A stretch of 7,183 nt of DNA from Candidatus Hydrogenedentota bacterium (lineage in GTDB: Bacteria; Hydrogenedentota; Hydrogenedentia; Hydrogenedentiales; CAITNO01), in contig CAIXUF010000635.1 of NCBI GenBank assembly GCA_903922535.1, positions 1 through 7,183 of the forward strand. Reading direction: 5' to 3'. A program made the translations under genes and the position numbers. Position 1 is the first letter of the stretch; every line of letters starts with the position of its first letter. A model generated the notes under the pieces. The model saw only the letters and a list, made by a program, of their open reading frames with translations, did not search any database and was not told the DNA's origin. This document shows positions 1 through 7,152 of the stretch, in pieces.

Positions 1-752
1 ACAGCATCCACGACGCGCCGCACCAGGCCATCGGCATCGGCGGCAACAACCACGTCATCGAGTGCAACGACGTCTTCCGCATCTGCCAGGAAGCGGACGA
101 CTGCGGCGCGTTCTACATGGGCCGCAACCCCTCCGAGCGGGGCACGGTCATCCGCCACAACTTCTGGCACGACACGGGCGGTCCGCGCTCGCATGGAAGC
201 TGCGCGATCTATTTCGACGACGGCGCGGGCGGGCAGACGGTCTTCGGCAATGTGTTCCTGCGCGCGGCGGGCGGCAGTTTCGGTGCCGTGTTTATCCACG
301 GCGGCCACGACAACCGGGTGATCAACAACATCTTCATCGACTGCAAGGCGGCCATGCGCCAGGTGCGGTGGGACGACAAGGGATGGCGCAAGTGGCTGGA
401 TGAGGAACTTTGGCAGGACCGCCTGCTGAAGGAGGTGGACATCACTAAACCGCCCTACAGTGAACGTTATCCCGAACTCAACGGTTTCATGGACTTTCAC
501 GGCGAGCCGCGACTGAATCATTCCGAGCGCAACGTTGTGGTGCGGTGCCCCATGCTCCTGGACGGTGACTGGGACCAGAAGGACAACTACGTCACCGACG
601 ACGACCCCGGATTTGTTGACGCGGCGGCGCTGAACTTTGCCCTAAAGGACGATTCCGAGGTCTTCAAAAAAGTGCCGGGCTTTGAGCGCATCCCCTTTGC
701 GGAGATCGGGCTGGTGAAGGACGATCTGCGGCCGGATCTGCCGAAACGGTAG
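1..752 (+). CDS. Right-handed parallel beta-helix protein, C-terminal part (5' end outside window)
   Basis: The gene enters from the left edge. The first complete codon is at position 3, and 249 codons precede the TAG at 750-752. The reading frame is open to the edge, so an internal ATG at 117 is not taken as the start. The first ~110 residues show short repeats typical of beta-helix coils: GGNNHVIECNDVF, GTVIRHNFWHD, TVFGNVFLRA, NRVINNIFIDC, with N and F/I stacked at regular intervals. A W/K/E-rich helical stretch follows, then a tail reading DDPGFVDAAALNFALKDDS and ending in IPFAEIGL. From memory, that tail is common in secreted beta-helix proteins of planctomycetes, Lentisphaerae and similar groups, often near polysaccharide-degradation genes. 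Family assignment is firm. Substrate and activity cannot be read because the catalytic region may lie outside the window. No functional link to the rightward operon is visible. Confidence 0.85.
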   Translation, partial: SIHDAPHQAIGIGGNNHVIECNDVFRICQEADDCGAFYMGRNPSERGTVIRHNFWHDTGGPRSHGSCAIYFDDGAGGQTVFGNVFLRAAGGSFGAVFIHGGHDNRVINNIFIDCKAAMRQVRWDDKGWRKWLDEELWQDRLLKEVDITKPPYSERYPELNGFMDFHGEPRLNHSERNVVVRCPMLLDGDWDQKDNYVTDDDPGFVDAAALNFALKDDSEVFKKVPGFERIPFAEIGLVKDDLRPDLPKR

Positions 753-855: not shown

Positions 856-2163
856 CTACCCCAAATACTTCTTCTGTTCCCCGTCGCGGCTTTGGGCCTC
901 CTCCTCGTCGCGCAGGATGTCGGCGGCCGTTTCCACCACCACCACCTTGACATTGTCCTCTTTCAAGTCATGCTCGAAAGACACGCGGTACTGGAGTCCC
1001 TCGGCGACCATCCGACGGAACAGTTCATGCACGTCGGTGCACCATTTCTTCTCCTGCCGCGCGAGGTGGATATGTTCGGAAATGCTGAGCGGCGCCCGGG
1101 CATCGGCCCCCTCAGGCCGTTCGTGAACCACCTCAAAGGCCAGTTGGCGGTTTTGGTGCAGCGCCGCGCGCACGATTTCCCCGCCGGGGATGCGCATGGA
1201 CGCAACGGCCATGGGTTGGCCCTCTTCAAAGGCGAAATCGTCCACCGCCTCATAGCCCATTTCGCCGAGGATGCGCGTGACCGCCTCGGCCACGCCGCGC
1301 CGCTGCGCGGCCATCATGCTGTCGCGGTCAATCTCGCCGCGCAGCGTCTCCAGCCGCCGTTCGATCGTGCCCAGCGCGTCGGCGTCGGGCTCACCGGCCG
1401 CGCAAAGCCCAATCAGGCGTTCGCGGAGCGCGCCAAGCTCCACGGCGTGGCCGGCCAGTTCGGCGGAGAACCGCCGTGCCACCTGTTCGGAAAACAGAAC
1501 CATGTCCAGGGCGCTCTCGATGCGGGCCTGGAGCGCCGCGCGCCACTCGCGCCGCGCGCGCATCGCTGCCAGAAACGCCGCCAGCGTGCCGTGATAGGCC
1601 TCGCGCAACCCCTCGATGTCGGCCCCGTCCAGCGGTTCGCCACCCTGCAGCCGCGCGGCCAGCGCGGCGCGCTGCCGCTCCAGGCGTCCGCAGGGATCAC
1701 CCTCGGCCGCGCGGAACGCGGCGGGGGCTTCGGCCAGCAGAGACGCAAACTCCGCCAGCAGCGACGCGGCGCGCTCCGGCGCCAGCCGCTCCCTGCCCAG
1801 TTCCATGTGCGCCCGGGCCCGTTCCGAAGGCGGCTCCCCGCCTTCCGCCCCGAGGACCCGCTTTGTCACCCCGCCCAATTCCATGGCGGCCAGTTTTTGC
1901 TCCGAAGCGACCAGCATTTCCTCCAGCGCGGCCGCCTCCCGGTTCTCCTGCTGCTGCCGCTGGACAAAGGCCGCCCATTCCGCGATGCGTTCCTTTTCCG
2001 CGTCGCGCTGCTTCTCCGCATTGTGGATGCAGTCATCCACAATCGCCTTCACCCCGACGGCAATGCCAACCGCGGCCGCCACCGCCGCGCCGCCGGTGGC
2101 GGCGTAGAACATGGTGTGGGTCGAGGGAATGATGATTTCCGTTGCGATGACATGGCCGCTCAT
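856..2163 (-). CDS. Coiled-coil protein of unknown function, paralog A (435 aa)
   Basis: I do not recognise this family. Residues ~19-41 form an Ala/Gly-rich hydrophobic segment ending in VKAIVDDC, possibly a membrane anchor. Residues ~45-100 and ~200-290 are charged, Ala/Glu/Arg-rich helices likely to form coiled coils. Residues ~286-412 look like an alpha/beta domain: AVTRILGEMGYE, then strand-like MAVASMRIPGG, LAFEVVHER, a helix starting KWCTDVHELFRRM, and strand VKVVVVE. The adjacent upstream gene encodes a paralog of 436 residues with the same domain order. In a 63-nt block (1251-1313 against 2618-2680) the two copies differ at four bases, all third codon positions of this leftward frame, which supports it over the long opposite-strand frame. 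The start is set by AAGGGAG 8 nt upstream; ATG at 2112 is an alternative. The divergent AAA+/radical SAM operon suggests shared function (inference). Confidence 0.85.
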   Translation of the reverse strand: MSGHVIATEIIIPSTHTMFYAATGGAAVAAAVGIAVGVKAIVDDCIHNAEKQRDAEKERIAEWAAFVQRQQQENREAAALEEMLVASEQKLAAMELGGVTKRVLGAEGGEPPSERARAHMELGRERLAPERAASLLAEFASLLAEAPAAFRAAEGDPCGRLERQRAALAARLQGGEPLDGADIEGLREAYHGTLAAFLAAMRARREWRAALQARIESALDMVLFSEQVARRFSAELAGHAVELGALRERLIGLCAAGEPDADALGTIERRLETLRGEIDRDSMMAAQRRGVAEAVTRILGEMGYEAVDDFAFEEGQPMAVASMRIPGGEIVRAALHQNRQLAFEVVHERPEGADARAPLSISEHIHLARQEKKWCTDVHELFRRMVAEGLQYRVSFEHDLKEDNVKVVVVETAADILRDEEEAQSRDGEQKKYLG

Positions 2164-2171
2164 GCATAGTA

Positions 2172-2178
2172 CTCCCTT
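2172..2178 (-). promoter_or_regulatory. Ribosome binding site of paralog A
   Basis: On the minus strand AAGGGAG lies 8 nt before the ATG at 2163. It decides between this start and the in-frame ATG at 2112, which would remove the first 17 residues. The resulting N-terminus, MSG, matches the one chosen for paralog B. The 10-mer CCAAGGGAGT containing this site also occurs before the AAA+ gene. Confidence 0.75.
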
Positions 2179-2193
2179 GGTCTGCCTTTTTTT

Positions 2194-2202
2194 AGTATAG
2201 CA
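2194..2202 (-). promoter_or_regulatory. Extended -10 promoter element of paralog A
   Basis: Read leftward the sequence is TGCTATACT, an extended -10 (TGnTATAAT-like). It lies in the 59-bp gap between the two paralogs and implies a leader of roughly 24 nt. No convincing -35 hexamer is visible 17 bp upstream, which fits an extended -10 promoter. It suggests paralog A can be transcribed independently of paralog B. No terminator is visible between the two genes, so readthrough from paralog B is also likely. Confidence 0.45.
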
Positions 2203-2222
2203 TGACAGGAAAGGCGGGGGGA

Positions 2223-3533
2223 TCAGTTGTCCATGCGCCGCTGCTGTCCGGAATTGGCGTCCATTTCGGCCCCCCTATCCAGAATGTCGCCGGGAGACTC
2301 GACCACCACCACCTTCACCGTCTCCTCCTTCAGTTCCTGCTCGAAGGCCACCCGGTACTGAAACCCCTCACCCACGAGGCGGCGGAACATTTCACGCATG
2401 TCGGCGCACCATTTCTGTTCCTGCCGCCGGAGGTGGACGCGTTCTGAAGTGGTAAGCGGGGCGTCGGCCCCCGGCCCGGACGACCGTTCGTGGACCACCT
2501 CAAAGGCAAGCTGGCGCTTGCGGTGCAGCGCCGCGCGCACTATCTCGCCGCCGGGAATGCGCAGGGACGCGACCGCCATGGGCGTGTCGCGTTCGAATGC
2601 AAAATCGTCTATGGACTCATAGCCCATCTCGCCGAGGATGCGCGTGACCGCCTCCGCAACGCCGCGCCGCTGCGCCGCCACAATCGTGTCCCGGTCGATG
2701 TCACCGCGCAGCGTTTCCAAACGCCGCTCGATCAGGCCCAGTTCCCCGGCGTTCGTCTCGTTGTCGGCGCACAGCGCTGTCAGGCGTCCGCGCAGCGTTT
2801 CCAGTTCGGCGGCGTGAAGGGCCATTTCCGCCTCGAACCGGGAAATGACATGTTCGGCGAACAGCACCGTGTCGAGTGCCGCCTCGATGCGCGCGCGCAT
2901 GGCCTCCTGCCAGTCACGCCGGGCGCGCACCGTGGCCACAAACGCGGCCAGTGTCCGGTGGTAGGCGTCGCGCAGCCCGGCAATATCCTCCGCCTCCACC
3001 CCGTCGCCCGAGGCCATCCGGCAGGCCATGGTCCGGCGCTGCCGTTCCAGCAGCCCCCAGGGGTCGCCTGCGGCGGCGCGAAACGCATCGGGCGCGGTCT
3101 GAAACATTTCCGCCAGATCATCCAGCAACGCGGCGGCATGGCCGGGGGAAAGCCGCTGCGCGCCCAACTGCATCCTGGCGCGCGCCAGCAGGTGCAGCGG
3201 CGCCTCCCGCCCGGCTTCGGCCGCGCGCTTCTCCACATTCCCCAGTTCCAGGGCGGCCAGCCGCTGCTCCGACGCGATCACAGCCTCCTCCAGTTCGGCG
3301 GCCCTGGCATTGGCCTCCTGTTGACGTTCCTGCAGCGCGCGCCATTCAAGGAGTTCGGCCTTGCGGCGGTTGCGGTATTCGATGGACTGGCTCACGCAGT
3401 CATCCACGATGCGCTTTACCCCCACGGCCAGAAGCAGCGGCGTCGCTCCCACCGCATACGCGCCCGCTTCGATGACGAAGTCCAAACGAAGGGGCAACAT
3501 TCCCTCATCATTGCCAATGACAGTTCCACTCAT
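2223..3533 (-). CDS. Coiled-coil protein of unknown function, paralog B (436 aa)
   Basis: This is the upstream copy of the tandem pair. Layout: hydrophobic segment ~20-43 (ending VKRIVDDC), helical region ~47-100, GDPWGLLERQR near 157, coiled-coil-like helices ~203-290, and a conserved C-terminal domain ~287-411. Long stretches there match paralog A almost exactly, including AAQRRGVAEAVTRILGEMGY and GGEIVRAALH. The first ~20 residues and the last ~20 differ between copies. Three cysteines are shared with paralog A: in VDDC, in the LCA turn near 255, and in KWC near 376. An upstream in-frame ATG at 3569 was rejected. The ATG at 3533 has GGGAGG 8 nt before it, gives MSG as in paralog A, and leaves room for the promoter. 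Function is unknown; the divergent AAA+ gene is the best clue. Confidence 0.85.
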   Translation of the reverse strand: MSGTVIGNDEGMLPLRLDFVIEAGAYAVGATPLLLAVGVKRIVDDCVSQSIEYRNRRKAELLEWRALQERQQEANARAAELEEAVIASEQRLAALELGNVEKRAAEAGREAPLHLLARARMQLGAQRLSPGHAAALLDDLAEMFQTAPDAFRAAAGDPWGLLERQRRTMACRMASGDGVEAEDIAGLRDAYHRTLAAFVATVRARRDWQEAMRARIEAALDTVLFAEHVISRFEAEMALHAAELETLRGRLTALCADNETNAGELGLIERRLETLRGDIDRDTIVAAQRRGVAEAVTRILGEMGYESIDDFAFERDTPMAVASLRIPGGEIVRAALHRKRQLAFEVVHERSSGPGADAPLTTSERVHLRRQEQKWCADMREMFRRLVGEGFQYRVAFEQELKEETVKVVVVESPGDILDRGAEMDANSGQQRRMDN

Positions 3534-3541
3534 AAGACCGG

Positions 3542-3547
3542 CCTCCC
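3542..3547 (-). promoter_or_regulatory. Ribosome binding site of paralog B
   Basis: On the minus strand GGGAGG lies 8 nt before the ATG at 3533, the same spacing as in paralog A. It favours this start over the in-frame ATG at 3569, which would add 12 residues (MLESGRLREAGL) absent from paralog A and would place the start upstream of the likely promoter. Confidence 0.75.
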
Positions 3548-3559
3548 TGAGCCGCCCTG

Positions 3560-3568
3560 ATTCTAGCA
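3560..3568 (-). promoter_or_regulatory. Extended -10 promoter element of paralog B
   Basis: Read leftward the sequence is TGCTAGAAT, an extended -10 element with the same TGCTA core found before paralog A. The implied leader is about 20 nt. With 17-bp spacing the -35 position would fall on TGGCGC (3583-3588 complement), a poor match to TTGACA that coincides with one arm of an inverted repeat. Confidence 0.45.
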
Positions 3569-3582
3569 CAACAAAAGAAAAT

Positions 3583-3602
3583 GCGCCACCAGGGGATGGC
3601 GC
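3583..3602. promoter_or_regulatory. Short inverted repeat, possible operator in the divergent promoter region
   Basis: GCGCCA (3583-3588) and TGGCGC (3597-3602) are exact reverse complements separated by 8 bp. The pair lies between the divergent starts at 3533 and 3728, and the left arm sits where the -35 of the leftward promoter would be. This placement would suit a repressor site. In GC-rich DNA a 6-bp inverted repeat can also arise by chance, so an operator role is only a suggestion. Confidence 0.3.
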
Positions 3603-3666
3603 CCCGTTTGCCGATGCGCACCCAACCGTCCACCGCCCCCCATCAACTATCGACTGTCACCTGCTT

Positions 3667-3696
3667 TTGCGCCTCCGTCCCCTTTCCGTCTACAAT
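3667..3696 (+). promoter_or_regulatory. Putative sigma70-type promoter of the AAA+ operon
   Basis: TTGCGC (3667-3672) and TACAAT (3691-3696) are separated by 18 bp. The -10 is a good match; the -35 keeps only TTG. A start of transcription near 3703 would give a leader of about 25 nt containing the Shine-Dalgarno site. The stretch 3534-3727 holds no gene. It contains this promoter, the leftward promoter and the short inverted repeat. Confidence 0.45.
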
Positions 3697-3714
3697 CACC
3701 GCAGGCATCAAGCC

Positions 3715-3721
3715 AAGGGAG
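3715..3721 (+). promoter_or_regulatory. Ribosome binding site of the AAA+ gene
   Basis: AAGGGAG lies 6 nt before the ATG at 3728. It decides the start, because the frame stays open upstream to an ATG at 3581, whose 49-codon extension would run through the promoter region. Confidence 0.8.
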
Positions 3722-3727
3722 TCCGCC

Positions 3728-5734
3728 ATGATTGTGGTGAATGAGGAGTCGTCGCGCTGGCTGCGCGAAATGGCGCGGTTTGTCTGCATCAAGAATGTCC
3801 TGTTCATCTACGGCAACGTGTACGACCTCGTCTCGTTTCCGGTGCAGGGGGACGAACCAAACCAACTGCGCTGGACCGAGAGCGACCTGCCTGGTTTTCT
3901 GCGCCGCTTTCTGCTCGGAATGAAATACGAGGTGGTCTCCTGGGCCGACCCGGTCGAGGACCTGTCCTTTGTGTCCCCCGAGATGGAGGCGGTGTTTCAT
4001 AGGATTGAAAAGGGCGGCGAGCCCGAGGACAAGGACAAACCGGCCACGGACGCGGACAAGAACCGGGCCGAGCTGGAGCAGGGCCGGTCCATGAACCAGC
4101 AGCAGTCCGGCGGCATGCTGAGCCGGGCGGCGGACAAGTTCCGCGGCGGCAAGCCGCGCGCCGTGGACTGGGAAACCGTGGTGCACCGGATCGGGCTGGG
4201 CCTGCAGAACACGAAAGTGCCCTGCGCGTTCGTGATCGATTTTGCGTCGCGCCTGACCTCCACGCCGGACCGGCTCCCGCGCGACGAGCGCCTGCTCATG
4301 ACCCGCCTGCTCAAGGCCACCATGGCCAGCCGCGAGGTGGTGCGCGAGGACGGGCGCTGGAACAACCTGATCATCCTCATCTGCGAGAAGCTCAACGACC
4401 TCCCCGCGTTTCTCTACCTGAACAGCCCGCGGGCGCGGTCCATCCACATCGAGCCGCCGGACCGGGACGAGCGGGAGCGTTTCATCCTCCGCTACTACCG
4501 CTACTTCCACGGCGCGGTGGGGCCGCAGGAACCGCCGCCCAAGCAGGTGGTGAAGGAGTTTGTCGATCTGACCGAGGGGCTCACGAACTACGAGATGCGC
4601 AGCCTGCTCAACCTGTCCCTGCGCGAGCGCATCCCCGTGGTTGATCCCGACACCGGCGTATCGAACGTCAAGCGCATTTCGGAGATGTACAAGTACGGCG
4701 TGACCGTGAGCGAGTGGGACAAGATCAGCGTGGAGCGGCTGTCCGGGGCAGAGGCCTTCATCCGCACCCGGATCAAGGGGCAGGAGGCGGCCGTCGGACG
4801 GGTCATCGACATCGTCAAGCGCGCCAAGATCGGCATCGCCGCGGGCGACAGCGACAAAACAAACCGCCCGCGGGGTGTGCTCTTCTTCGCCGGGCCCACC
4901 GGTGTGGGCAAGACCGAAATGGCCAAGGCGCTGGCCGAACTGCTGTTCGGCCGCGAGGACCGGCTGCTCCGTTTCGATATGAGCGAGTACGCCGCACCCC
5001 AGTCGGACCAGCGCCTGCTCGGCGCGCCGCCGGGCTATGTGGGCTATGAGGAGGGCGGCCAGCTCACCAACGCCGTCAAGAACAACCCCTTCTCGATTCT
5101 GCTCTTCGACGAGATCGAAAAGGCCCACGGCAGCATCTTCGACAAGTTCCTCCAAATCCTGGACGACGGTCGGCTGACCGACAGCAAGGGCGAAACCGTC
5201 TATTTTTCCGAGTGCATCATCATCTTCACGAGCAACCTGGGCACGGTCGCCCGGTCCGAGGGCGAGGCGCCGCAGGTGCTGGTCACGCCCGACATGCCCT
5301 ACAGCCGCATGAAGGACACGGTGCTCCAGGCCATCCGCGACCACTTCAACTTCGTGCTGGGCCGCCCGGAAATCCTCAACCGATTCGGCGACAATTTCGT
5401 GGTCTTCGACTTCATCAAACCGCCCCTCGACGAGCAGATTGTGGACCTGCTGATCGGCAAGCTGTCCCACGCCGCACTCGAAACCCGGGGGACGACCGTC
5501 GTGGTGGAGCAGGCCGCCCGCGACAAGCTGGTGGAATACGCGCGCACCCACCTGCACCATGGCGGGCGAGGCATCCGCAACGCCGTCGATTCTGCGCTGG
5601 TCAACCCACTGAGCCGGGCCCTGTTCGACGGCAACGTGCCCGCGGGCACGCGGCTGCGGGTGCTCGATTTGATTGACCGCGGAGTGGATGCCCCCACGCG
5701 CTTTGAACTCACCGTGCGAATCGAGTCCGCATGA
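3728..5734 (+). CDS. Two-domain AAA+ ATPase: degenerate first domain, ClpA/ClpB-D2-like second domain (668 aa)
   Basis: The second domain (~335-668) carries a full ATPase set: Walker A GPTGVGKT (389-396), pore loop GYVGYEEGG (436-444), Walker B ILLFDE (457-462), sensor-1 Asn in TSN (503), arginine-finger position in EILNRF (R552), and a sensor-2 region GGRGIR (612-617). This is the pattern of the D2 ring of ClpA/ClpB-type unfoldases, so ATP-driven threading or remodelling of a protein is expected in the cytoplasm. The first ~300 residues lack Walker A, but keep strands resembling a worn AAA core: NVLFIYGNVYDL (23-34), CAFVIDF (166-172), LIILICE (214-220) and a lid-like LTEGLTNYEMRSLL (281-294). 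A charged linker lies at ~95-140. There is no ClpP-docking loop or Clp N-domain that I can recognise, so it is not an ordinary Clp. It overlaps the radical SAM gene by 4 nt, implying coupled translation. Confidence 0.92.
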   Translation: MIVVNEESSRWLREMARFVCIKNVLFIYGNVYDLVSFPVQGDEPNQLRWTESDLPGFLRRFLLGMKYEVVSWADPVEDLSFVSPEMEAVFHRIEKGGEPEDKDKPATDADKNRAELEQGRSMNQQQSGGMLSRAADKFRGGKPRAVDWETVVHRIGLGLQNTKVPCAFVIDFASRLTSTPDRLPRDERLLMTRLLKATMASREVVREDGRWNNLIILICEKLNDLPAFLYLNSPRARSIHIEPPDRDERERFILRYYRYFHGAVGPQEPPPKQVVKEFVDLTEGLTNYEMRSLLNLSLRERIPVVDPDTGVSNVKRISEMYKYGVTVSEWDKISVERLSGAEAFIRTRIKGQEAAVGRVIDIVKRAKIGIAAGDSDKTNRPRGVLFFAGPTGVGKTEMAKALAELLFGREDRLLRFDMSEYAAPQSDQRLLGAPPGYVGYEEGGQLTNAVKNNPFSILLFDEIEKAHGSIFDKFLQILDDGRLTDSKGETVYFSECIIIFTSNLGTVARSEGEAPQVLVTPDMPYSRMKDTVLQAIRDHFNFVLGRPEILNRFGDNFVVFDFIKPPLDEQIVDLLIGKLSHAALETRGTTVVVEQAARDKLVEYARTHLHHGGRGIRNAVDSALVNPLSRALFDGNVPAGTRLRVLDLIDRGVDAPTRFELTVRIESA

Positions 5735-6354
5735 GCGTGCTGCGCCTGTTCGCCCTGGCCTGGCCCGTGACGGCGCTTGGGCCGGGAGTCCGGGCCGTGC
5801 TCTGGGTGGCCGGATGCCCGCGCGACTGCCCGGGATGCATCAGCCCCGAGATGCAGCCCGATGACGCGGGCGAGGACGTTCCGGTCAGCGTGCTGGCCGC
5901 GCGTCTGGAGCGCATCGCGGCCCCGCTCGACGGCGTCACCATTTCGGGCGGCGAGCCCTTCGACCAGCCGGAGGCGCTGGCCGATCTGCTGGACCGGCTG
6001 CGCGCGATGCGGCCCGACTGGAACGTGCTCGTCTATACGGGATACCTGATTGAGGAACTCCGCGCCGACCCCGTCCGCGCCGTGCTGCTGGAACACATCG
6101 ACATTCTTGCGGACGGCCCCTACCGGCAGGAGATTCCCCGCACCCATCCGCTGACCGGGTCCGGAAACCAGCGGGTGCATTATCTGAGCCCGCGCGGCGC
6201 GGCCCTCCGTGAGACGGTGGAGTCGCTGCAGTCCGGCGCGATGAACCTGGGACTGAGCCGGTCCGGCCTCACGGACATGATTATCGGCGTCACCGACGCG
6301 CAAAAGCGCGCCGACGCCTGCCGCGAACTCACCCCGCCGACGCAGACGGAATGA
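5731..6354 (+). CDS. NrdG-like radical SAM activating protein (207 aa)
   Basis: A short radical SAM protein of the 4Fe-4S single-cluster type. CPRDCPGC (29-36) gives the CX3CX2C ligand set for the [4Fe-4S] cluster that cleaves S-adenosylmethionine. ISGGEPFDQPEAL (71-83) is the SAM-binding GGEP motif. VYTGY (101-105), DGPY (128-131) and GSGNQRV (143-149) match the order of motifs in NrdG, the activase of anaerobic ribonucleotide reductase. NrdG is typically ~150-160 residues; this protein is longer, with ~50 residues after the core ending in an Arg/Glu-rich tail. No NrdD or other glycyl-radical enzyme lies in the window. The start overlaps the AAA+ stop (ATGA), so the two are probably made in fixed ratio and work together. 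The target is unknown; candidates are the AAA+ protein, the coiled-coil paralogs or an outside client (inference). Confidence 0.9.
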   Translation: MSVLRLFALAWPVTALGPGVRAVLWVAGCPRDCPGCISPEMQPDDAGEDVPVSVLAARLERIAAPLDGVTISGGEPFDQPEALADLLDRLRAMRPDWNVLVYTGYLIEELRADPVRAVLLEHIDILADGPYRQEIPRTHPLTGSGNQRVHYLSPRGAALRETVESLQSGAMNLGLSRSGLTDMIIGVTDAQKRADACRELTPPTQTE

Positions 6355-6381: not shown

Positions 6382-7152
6382 ATGCTGCTGATCAAAGTAC
6401 TGACACAACTCGCGTCTCCACTGGGCCTGACCCTGACGGTGCTTTTGTCCGCGTTCTTTCTGATGATCGCCAGATTCCGGAAGATCGGCCTGTTTCTCCT
6501 CTCTTTTTCCGTGCTGTGGCTGTGGTTCTGGTCCGCGCCGGCGACCGGCGACTGGGTGCGGCAGACCCTGGAACGCGCCAATCCGCCTGTGCCGGTGGAG
6601 AAATTGCCCGGTGCCGACGCCATTGTGGTGCTGGGCGGCGGAATGGGGACGATGGCACCACCGCGGCCATATCCCGACCTGGCCGCCGCCGCCGACCGGG
6701 TGTGGCATGCCGCACGGCTTTACAAGGCGGGCAAAGCCCCGGTCATTGTGGTGAGCGGCGGAATGGGATTGGTGCAGGAGGAGGGAAAGCAGCCGGAGTC
6801 CGACGCCATGGGCGAGTTTCTGGAGGACTTGGGCGTTCCAAAATCGGCCATCCTGTTTGAATCGGAAAGCCGAAACACCTACGAGAACGCCCTCCTGACC
6901 AAGCGTCTCCTGGACGCCCGGGGTGACAAGACCATACTTTTGGTCACCTCCGCGCTCCATATGCGCCGCGCCGAGGCCATCTTCCGGTCTTTCGGCCTGA
7001 ACATCATTCCCGCCGCAACCGACTACGAAGTCCTTGACGAGCCAAAACCGGCCCCCTTGCGGTGGCTTCCCGATGGGGGAACGCTGGAAGGCAGCTCTCG
7101 TGCGCTCAAGGAATACCTCGGGCTGATTACCTTCCGCATCCGGGGAGAATAG
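6382..7152 (+). CDS. ElyC/SanA/YdcF-family (DUF218) membrane protein (256 aa)
   Basis: Two N-terminal hydrophobic helices (~10-30 and ~34-52, separated by RFRK) precede a soluble domain at ~78-250. The domain has the DUF218 signature: AIVVLGGGMG (80-89), VIVVSGGMG (121-129), a conserved acidic site in QPESDAM (137-143), SRNTYENA (163-170) and LVTSALHMRRA (187-197). Length and the two-helix arrangement match E. coli ElyC (259 aa), which affects peptidoglycan and envelope-carbohydrate assembly; the biochemical activity of this family is poorly defined. The soluble domain probably faces the periplasm. The gene starts 27 bp after the radical SAM stop with only a weak GAAAG purine stretch upstream, so it is likely co-transcribed. 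Whether it belongs functionally to the AAA+/radical SAM pair is uncertain, because DUF218 genes occur in many contexts. Confidence 0.9.
   Translation: MLLIKVLTQLASPLGLTLTVLLSAFFLMIARFRKIGLFLLSFSVLWLWFWSAPATGDWVRQTLERANPPVPVEKLPGADAIVVLGGGMGTMAPPRPYPDLAAAADRVWHAARLYKAGKAPVIVVSGGMGLVQEEGKQPESDAMGEFLEDLGVPKSAILFESESRNTYENALLTKRLLDARGDKTILLVTSALHMRRAEAIFRSFGLNIIPAATDYEVLDEPKPAPLRWLPDGGTLEGSSRALKEYLGLITFRIRGE

Follow-up and report, generated by a model that had tools for sequence, protein, structure and literature searches.

AAA+ ATPases have been found combined with a radical S-adenosylmethionine (SAM) enzyme in the FtsH ternary vWA-MoxR systems, conflict systems that include a radical SAM gene and for which modification of a peptide effector is predicted (Kaur et al., 2020; PMC7159879). 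In Pseudomonas aeruginosa, the cDHS1 defence hotspot is flanked by a large DUF4011 gene and a radical SAM gene on the same side, the DUF4011 gene being present in every isolate and hence core (PMC10250203), and a cyanobacterial cluster joins DUF2997 and Ycf35 (DUF1257) to a ferredoxin (PMC4284462). Here we analyse a 7,183-nucleotide stretch of DNA (the window) from a Candidatus Hydrogenedentota bacterium (contig CAIXUF010000635.1 of assembly GCA_903922535.1), in which two tandem paralogs of a protein family that we call MSG stand divergently from an AAA+ ATPase gene and an NrdG-like radical SAM gene. Counts of these families in other genomes leave us close to certain that AAA+, radical SAM and MSG form a real system with a conserved core.

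The window holds six genes: the end of a beta-helix gene, paralog B, paralog A, the AAA+ gene, the radical SAM gene and a DUF218/ElyC-like gene. Paralog B (856-2163, minus strand; 435 residues beginning MSGHVI) and paralog A (2223-3533, minus strand; 436 residues beginning MSGTVI) were called as open reading frames (ORFs) and assigned to the MSG family by alignment and, for paralog B, by profile. They are identical at 250 of 433 aligned residues (58%, E 2e-159). On the plus strand lie the AAA+ gene (3728-5734; 668 residues, an N-terminal domain followed by a ClpB-D2-like module) and the radical SAM gene (5731-6354; 207 residues), each assigned by Pfam, NCBIfam and alignment; they overlap by 4 bp and share the sequence ATGA (5731-5734). 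A previous reading made from the letters alone (the sequence-only reading) had described tandem paralogs without a known family, divergent from a ClpB-D2-like AAA+ gene that overlaps an NrdG-like one, with about 194 bp between the divergent starts. All of this holds, and the intergenic region at 3534-3727, between the starts of paralog A and the AAA+ gene, is exactly 194 bp long.

The same reading had looked to repeated co-occurrence of the three families for support, and this is what the genome searches reveal. A scan of one genome per species with the AAA+ protein retained the best 80 loci, so that the total is at least 80. In the first nine, the match extends far past the D2 half, starting at query residue 9-167; in the remaining 71 it lies mainly in the ClpB-like half, starting near residue 290 (232 in locus L058), and these serve as controls. 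Forty AAA+-type loci, gathered by AAA+ similarity, were then scored; L005 and L009 were replaced by the longer stretches L132 and L131, and L081-L108, which are short stretches of the same matches, were excluded. A radical SAM gene is present in 28 of the 40, the MSG C-terminal domain in 30 and both in 24. In contrast, none of the 71 control Clp-type loci (975,604 bases) has a profile match to the MSG domain, the radical SAM enzyme or the AAA+ N-terminal domain. Neither partner is found in six loci (L001-L003, from Clostridia, and L128-L130), which are thus six of the ten without an MSG-domain match. Many of the 40 loci gave rows to profiles A8-A10, and the window, which carries all three components, gave rows to every profile; positives that contributed no row number 13 for the MSG domain (L110, L113, L115, L123, L126, L172-L179) and ten for the radical SAM enzyme (L008, L109, L110, L115, L119-L121, L123, L131, L174).

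Searching genome samples with the AAA+ N-terminal domain (profile A4, E <= 1e-10) gave matches in 7/299 Pseudomonadota, 5/199 Planctomycetota, 5/246 Actinomycetota and 7/194 Cyanobacteriota genomes, the phylum of a sample being that of its centre genome, which is itself a match in the Pseudomonadota and Actinomycetota samples. The 201 Chloroflexota genomes gave none, in a sample without a known positive that is therefore uninformative. A set number of candidates was scored per genome, and up to 20 kb of sequence was read around each match; three of the seven cyanobacterial matches are the outgroup loci L128-L130. A reverse search of 545 genomes with the MSG domain gave matches in 6/299 Pseudomonadota and 3/246 Actinomycetota genomes. 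All nine lie near an AAA+ gene, eight of them within ~2 kb and the ninth (genome G170) ~9 kb away behind a giant gene, and there is no orphan. Seven of the nine were already in the profile, and the informative part is therefore the absence of orphans together with the new matches in G193 and G170. The trio spans Pseudomonadota, Actinomycetota and Bacillota among named records and Cyanobacteriota and Planctomycetota among sampled genomes. The cyanobacterial relatives that the sequence-only reading had thought possible do exist (L124-L127), as does a plasmid locus with the AAA+ and MSG genes only (L176). Two loci sampled as Pseudomonadota (L112 and L113, from G018 and G193) have AAA+ proteins that group with cyanobacterial ones and proteins of the MS(G/A)TPKY type, which suggests transfer between phyla.

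The AAA+ protein of the window is a composite. Its Pfam matches are confined to the D2 half (AAA_2, 1.4e-49; ClpB_D2-small, 2e-7), and the first ~330 residues match no Pfam or NCBIfam family. This N-terminal domain has GNVxD, DFASR and DLPxxL motifs and no P-loop visible by eye. The D2-like module contains a Walker A motif (GPTGVGKT; 4892-4915, plus strand), in which G, P, T, G, G, K and T are invariant, and a Walker B motif (LLFDE; 5099-5113, plus strand); the Walker motifs and a GYVG pore loop are kept in all nine rows of alignment A1. Against the ClpB equivalog model (TIGR03346) the protein scores 271 bits relative to a cut-off of 1232, over the D2 stretch alone, and its PADLOC matches (PDC-M37B and DolB) likewise cover only this stretch. 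In the AAA+ tree, the window protein is sister to that of L111 (support 100/100).

The radical SAM enzyme matches Fer4_12 (6.9e-30) and Radical_SAM (1.1e-7) in Pfam. Its best NCBIfam model is NrdG (TIGR02491), at 98.4 bits, below the 126.1-bit cut-off; NrdG-type models score 98, 61, 46 and 40 bits, activases of glycyl radical enzymes 40 bits or less, and QueE 13 bits. The CX3CX2C cluster motif (5815-5838, plus strand; all three Cys invariant), GG(E/D)P and GSxNQ, which we take to be an NrdG feature, are kept in 18/18 aligned proteins (A10). Pfam detects no glycyl radical enzyme, and hence no NrdD partner, in the window or among 38 scanned proteins of other loci, a set that samples the neighbours of the relatives. 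Since the MSG protein mostly adjoins, it is the simplest candidate partner for the enzyme.

No Pfam, NCBIfam or PADLOC family gives the paralogs a name. NCBIfam has no match, Pfam matches are below cut-off (HTH_55, 0.057; Arg_decarbox_C, 0.34), and PADLOC has one weak match to paralog A (LmuB, 0.015); a coiled-coil character is suggested by their composition and by weak similarity to designed coiled coils (E 0.08 and 0.27). A protein search returned one protein of each paralog type for each of three contigs (3692, 11516 and 36251 bases), and from this inferred pairing the tandem arrangement appears to be old. Another match (P0020) is from a Candidatus Hydrogenedentes metagenome-assembled genome, at 45%. 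A search with a diverse alignment found 26 proteins, mostly of the window's own branch, so the size of the MSG family is not countable in that way.

The family is characterised by a conserved Met-Ser(-Gly) start, a long helical middle and a small C-terminal domain. In the window, this domain is encoded at 856-1365 (minus strand) in paralog B, the stretch used in profile A8 and common to MSG proteins of other phyla, and at 2223-2732 (minus strand) in paralog A, as placed by alignment to the family profile; both align with the MSG proteins of L006 and L007. The domains of the Pseudomonadota, Actinomycetota and window group match those of the Cyanobacteriota and Planctomycetota group with a profile-profile probability of 72% (P 3.3e-5). 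In the joint profile A8 (18 rows), a Cys column and a Gly column are the two that are invariant. The Cys, also invariant in 15/15 rows of A7, is residue 375 of paralog B (codon at 1039-1041, minus strand) and residue 376 of paralog A (2406-2408, minus strand; aligned in A7 and A8). All eight MSG neighbours on the plasmids described below match A8, in which none was used, with a best domain score of 47 to 128 bits. A match of the L006 protein to Rx_N (26.8 bits; cut-off 27.7) occurs in no other scanned MSG protein and is taken as helical similarity.

Among 33 MSG proteins, 32 start with Met-Ser: 21 with Met-Ser-Gly, 3 with Met-Ser-Ala and 8 with Met-Ser followed by another residue; the remaining protein starts with Met-Thr-Gly. 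ORF starts were set mechanically, except in plasmids, where annotated starts were used, and GTG starts were read as Met. Eight starts were chosen by hand, that of paralog A by its Shine-Dalgarno-like sequence and those of L132, L110, L121, L123, L112, L118 and L177 by the motif. With these left out, Met-Ser is found in 24/25 and Met-Ser-Gly in 15/25, compared with 28/320 and 1/320, respectively, for other ORFs of the same loci, a background of mechanical starts that includes spurious ORFs. What comes next varies: hydrophobic residues in the window and in L114, PKxxxY in Aristaeella and several Actinomycetota, and (S/T)PKY in Cyanobacteriota. A small second residue leads to removal of the initiator Met, and Ser would thus become the mature N terminus of MSG proteins.

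In relatives, the core is accompanied by several kinds of further genes. L004, L005 and L009 each encode the AAA+ protein, the radical SAM enzyme, a protein of ~2100 residues and one with an MSGPK start (in L005 the MSG gene is at the edge of the stretch, and it was read in L132). The L004 giant, the only one scanned in full, comprises protein kinase, DUF4011, superfamily 1 (SF1) helicase and MTES_1575 nuclease domains; for the large genes of L005, L009 and L178, size, position or annotation was the guide. DUF4011 is also matched in G170, G001 and G216. In P. aeruginosa PAO1, a likely match may be PA2725 (chaperone), PA2726 (radical activating enzyme) and PA2727. L007 has the order MSGPK protein, AAA+, radical SAM, zinc-ribbon-FHA and PP2C; L006 has an MSGP protein, an ankyrin gene, AAA+ and radical SAM; and L111 has an MSA-type protein, AAA+, radical SAM, zinc-ribbon-FHA and a kinase, all in one direction. 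In total, kinase, FHA or PP2C neighbours are present in L007, L111, L120, L121, L122, L124 and L179.

The system is also carried on plasmids. Compared with 72,556 plasmid records, the L005 AAA+ protein has 20 matches (E <= 1e-60, every alignment covering 80% or more of the protein), 12 of them in records typed as conjugative and six of the 20 in near-identical Moellerella plasmids. Eight records were opened. The Moellerella, Acinetobacter, Photobacterium, Polaromonas and Leisingera plasmids have one common gene order, annotated as an 'AAA domain' protein, a PIN-domain protein, a 'hypothetical protein' of ~375 residues, AAA+ and a 4Fe-4S radical SAM enzyme. By Pfam, the first gene encodes an SF1 helicase (AAA_11/AAA_12; checked in Moellerella, Acinetobacter and Leisingera) and the second PIN_4 (checked in Moellerella and Acinetobacter). 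On the Rhizobium plasmid, AAA+ and radical SAM genes are joined by genes for an 'AAA domain' protein of 2086 residues and for an MSGPK protein. The Aristaeella record lists DUF4011, a kinase, an MSGPK protein, FHA, radical SAM, AAA+, a phosphatase, DUF6273 and a second kinase. The Geminocystis plasmid (L176) encodes an MSGSPKY protein along with AAA+, and its stretch lacks a radical SAM gene. The 4-bp overlap seen in the window recurs in five of the seven annotated plasmid loci that have both AAA+ and radical SAM genes.

Several other genes lie close to the core in single loci or pairs of loci. A protein of ~1000 residues, possibly another type of effector, is encoded just upstream in two loci sampled as Planctomycetota (L116, 4797-7889; L117, 6951-9890), with a Ppx/GppA domain in L116 and no Pfam match in L117. 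An FtsK/SpoIIIE-type protein similar to mad8 and SspH (L122, 31-3348) is found near an Actinomycetota-sampled trio with kinase and PP2C. In L002 (9847-10593) and L003 (9805-10545), a gene of ~247 residues without a family name follows AAA+, and the two begin alike. Further radical SAM genes are located near the operon in Acinetobacter (L173, 14709-16213) and Photobacterium (L174, 1-1520), with a small AAA gene in L173. HigB-type toxin and regulator genes separate the MSG and AAA+ genes of the Geminocystis plasmid (L176, 7238-7943). HigBA, the ankyrin gene of L006 and ArdA in L172 each occur in one locus, and are therefore not counted as parts of the system.

We propose that the window locus may represent the smallest version of a multi-gene system built on a core of MSG protein, AAA+ motor and NrdG-like enzyme. 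The radical SAM enzyme would make a radical-based modification on the MSG protein, a step that we consider a nearly even call, and candidate sites are the exposed N-terminal Ser/Gly and the invariant Cys. The AAA+ motor, with its inactive-looking N-terminal domain, would bind the MSG protein and, at the expense of ATP, load the assembly, remodel it or take it apart, and this change may switch an associated effector. In relatives, the putative effectors and regulators are the SF1 helicase with PIN nuclease, the kinase-DUF4011-helicase-restriction endonuclease protein, and the Ser/Thr kinase accompanied by FHA and PP2C proteins. The window has a pair of MSG paralogs where relatives have one, and the two perhaps form a heteromer. 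This whole sequence of modification, remodelling and switching is offered tentatively, as possible and somewhat short of even. The sequence-only reading, supported as to the recurrence of the three families, had likewise put the paralogs forward as a putative substrate, scaffold or adaptor of an ATP-driven remodelling and radical-based modification machine. The family's shared start and Cys, and the partner genes of relatives (kinase, FHA and PP2C, or helicase and nuclease), lay outside what that reading could see. The helicase, nuclease, kinase, FHA and PP2C partners point to a stress- or invader-triggered conflict system, and on balance we lean slightly toward a role in defence. A more specific version is speculative and unlikely to be correct in full: the NrdG-like enzyme would furnish the MSG protein with a radical or with a cross-link made by radical chemistry, AAA+ would thread or reset the modified protein, and a helicase-nuclease or kinase effector would thereby be controlled against invaders. 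The sites in that version, equally speculative, would be the N-terminal Ser/Gly left after processing or the invariant Cys of the C-terminal domain, with an MSG heteromer in the window lineage. To our knowledge, a protein-radical step has not been reported for any bacterial defence switch.

A number of observations weigh against this proposal. In 6/40 loci (L112, L113, L114, L125, L126, L176), the sequence that was read has the MSG domain but no radical SAM gene. Whole-genome searches place such an enzyme ~13 kb from L125 and ~10 kb from L126 (G823 and G759) and on another contig in the L112 genome (G018), and find none in G193 (L113). Four of the 40 have the radical SAM gene without an MSG-domain match (L004, L008, L109, L120), and the AAA+ gene of L008 is at a contig end, with the radical SAM gene 5.5 kb away. 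The MSG-domain match of L123 is weak (E 2.8e-4), in a frame that also holds an MSGSPKY start, and three AAA+-positive genomes (G216, G683, G716) went undetected in the reverse search. Gly3 is absent from 11/33 MSG members, and a single fixed glycyl radical at this position therefore cannot be the rule, which excludes it as a universal mechanism. Nine of these 11 (L116-L119, L172-L175, L177) make up the helicase-PIN and Planctomycetota set; in the tree, the AAA+ genes of this set fall into a single group with modest support (89/66). The core status of the DUF4011 gene in a similar neighbourhood of P. aeruginosa (PMC10250203) fits a housekeeping role equally well. Phage records gave no match to the L005 AAA+ N-terminal domain as query, and the window itself has no kinase or nuclease gene and no visible effector.

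Some of these loci have features of their own. The L114 locus, with AAA+ and MSG, is at a contig end, and the L004 stretch ends, also at a contig end, inside its MSGPK gene. In L120, an MTGPS protein below the MSG-domain threshold adjoins AAA+. L109, which has AAA+ and radical SAM genes but no MSG-domain match, carries a shortened, split-looking giant gene (11812-16908), and this locus may be decaying.

Other explanations place the chemistry or the purpose of the system elsewhere. QueE and viperin are small radical SAM enzymes that act on small molecules, and the enzyme described here could similarly make a nucleotide analogue or signal that is sensed by AAA+ and MSG or acts on an invader, leaving MSG as an unmodified scaffold. 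The Moellerella enzyme has a weak pVip match (5.6e-6, residues 27-103) that is in keeping with such a role. However, the model ranking of the window enzyme, with NrdG-type models far above QueE, the retention of GSxNQ in every aligned protein and the linkage to a single protein family all argue against a small-molecule product, and we judge it unlikely. NrdG being the nearest named family, the enzyme might instead activate a glycyl radical enzyme encoded elsewhere, such as NrdD, and its place beside AAA+ would be secondary; the lack of any glycyl radical enzyme among the scanned neighbours and the association with AAA+ and MSG genes in different phyla make this very improbable. That the genes are chance neighbours without a functional link deserves next to no credence, given both partners in 24/40 AAA+ loci versus either in 0/71 controls, and the 4-bp overlaps in the window and in most annotated plasmid loci.

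The alternative with the greatest weight is a housekeeping or stress-signalling module, in which kinase, phosphatase and FHA proteins would read an MSG scaffold remodelled by AAA+, and the nucleases would serve in repair or be incidental. It draws on the seven loci with kinase, FHA or PP2C neighbours and on the DUF4011 gene reported as core in P. aeruginosa, where a radical SAM gene shares its flank (PMC10250203), and the kinase matches in PADLOC may reflect generic kinase similarity. Patchy distribution across the five sampled phyla, carriage on plasmids that are conjugative in 12 of 20 records (six of the 20 being the near-identical Moellerella plasmids) and the helicase-nuclease operons are less easily reconciled with it, and we consider it somewhat unlikely.

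The remaining features of the window concern its control region and flanks. Shine-Dalgarno-like sequences precede the starts of both paralogs and the AAA+ gene: CTCAGGGAGG lies before the ATG of paralog A at 3533, where a longer GTG ORF begins at 3569, and AAGGGAG before the ATG of AAA+ at 3728, where the mechanical ORF begins at 3581. No sigma-70-like promoter match was found within the divergent region (3534-3727), which contains a terminator-like stem (3583-3602, minus strand) reading toward paralog A. The beta-helix gene (3-752, plus strand) is cut by the window start, leaving the C-terminal portion of a protein of the right-handed beta-helix type (Beta_helix, 2e-4; NosD, 0.006; both below cut-off). 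The DUF218/ElyC-like gene (6382-7152, plus strand; Pfam/NCBIfam scan) begins 27 bp past the radical SAM gene and is possibly co-transcribed with it. Neither gene was noticed near the trio in the other listed loci, where no dedicated search for them was made, and both are taken as neighbours only.

The MSG protein and the AAA+ N-terminal domain fall in no named family found, yet the trio spans phyla and is carried on conjugative plasmids beside nucleases. If it acts in defence, it would add radical SAM and AAA+ motor chemistry on a dedicated protein, a combination not found in PADLOC; if it acts in signalling, it would join protein phosphorylation to radical chemistry. Either way, the prediction is clear: a single protein should carry a modification, at either of two conserved positions.

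Each component resembles something known. As in ClpB and ClpA (Hsp100; TIGR03346, PF07724, PF10431), the window AAA+ protein has a D2 module with Walker A and B motifs, a GYVG loop and a C-terminal small domain; unlike them, it has one such module, and its N-terminal half is a separate family without a Pfam name. The radical SAM family shares CX3CX2C, GG(E/D)P and GSxNQ with NrdG (TIGR02491), whereas the enzyme is ~40-70 residues longer than the 154-position model and is linked to AAA+ and MSG genes. The MSG C-terminal domain shows some similarity to DUF2997 (hhalign 40%, P 3e-4), and an Fe-S partner is common to both settings, but the homology is unconvincing (DUF1257 reaches only 9%), and we do not claim kinship with the DUF2997-Ycf35-ferredoxin cluster as set out in the available part of PMC4284462.

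At the level of whole systems, the effector proteins of relatives are related to the SF1 helicases of Mokosh (MkoA, which is also a kinase), Hhe and PDC-S37 in PADLOC-DB 2.0.0: the Moellerella helicase matches MkoA at 7e-102, and the L004 giant matches PDC-S37 at 1.6e-143 and also resembles Hhe and MkoA. Unlike in Mokosh, the kinase/helicase core gene is absent from the window and related helicases are present in only some relatives; and unlike in any of the three, the four scanned MSG proteins, two from the window and two from relatives, have no significant PADLOC match (threshold 0.001 for the relatives). The L004 giant with DUF4011 and the radical SAM genes resemble the right flank of cDHS1, genes that appear in the available part of PMC10250203 solely as flanks of the hotspot. 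No system of this composition is described in PADLOC, Pfam or NCBIfam or in the available parts of PMC7159879, PMC10853773, PMC10250203 and PMC4284462, and literature searches on core and partner terms, with subscription journals largely outside their scope, did not return the trio, in agreement with the sequence-only reading, which knew of none. The FtsH ternary systems (PMC7159879) combine AAA+ with a radical SAM enzyme as here and are one precedent for this pairing in conflict systems, and the effectors of the system described here are of known kinds. In contrast, those systems are built on vWA, MoxR and FtsH, and no vWA protein is matched in the window or the 38 scanned proteins of other loci. 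The AAA+/radical SAM/MSG system is thus undescribed within the databases and literature searched, and it is not a variant of any one described system found.

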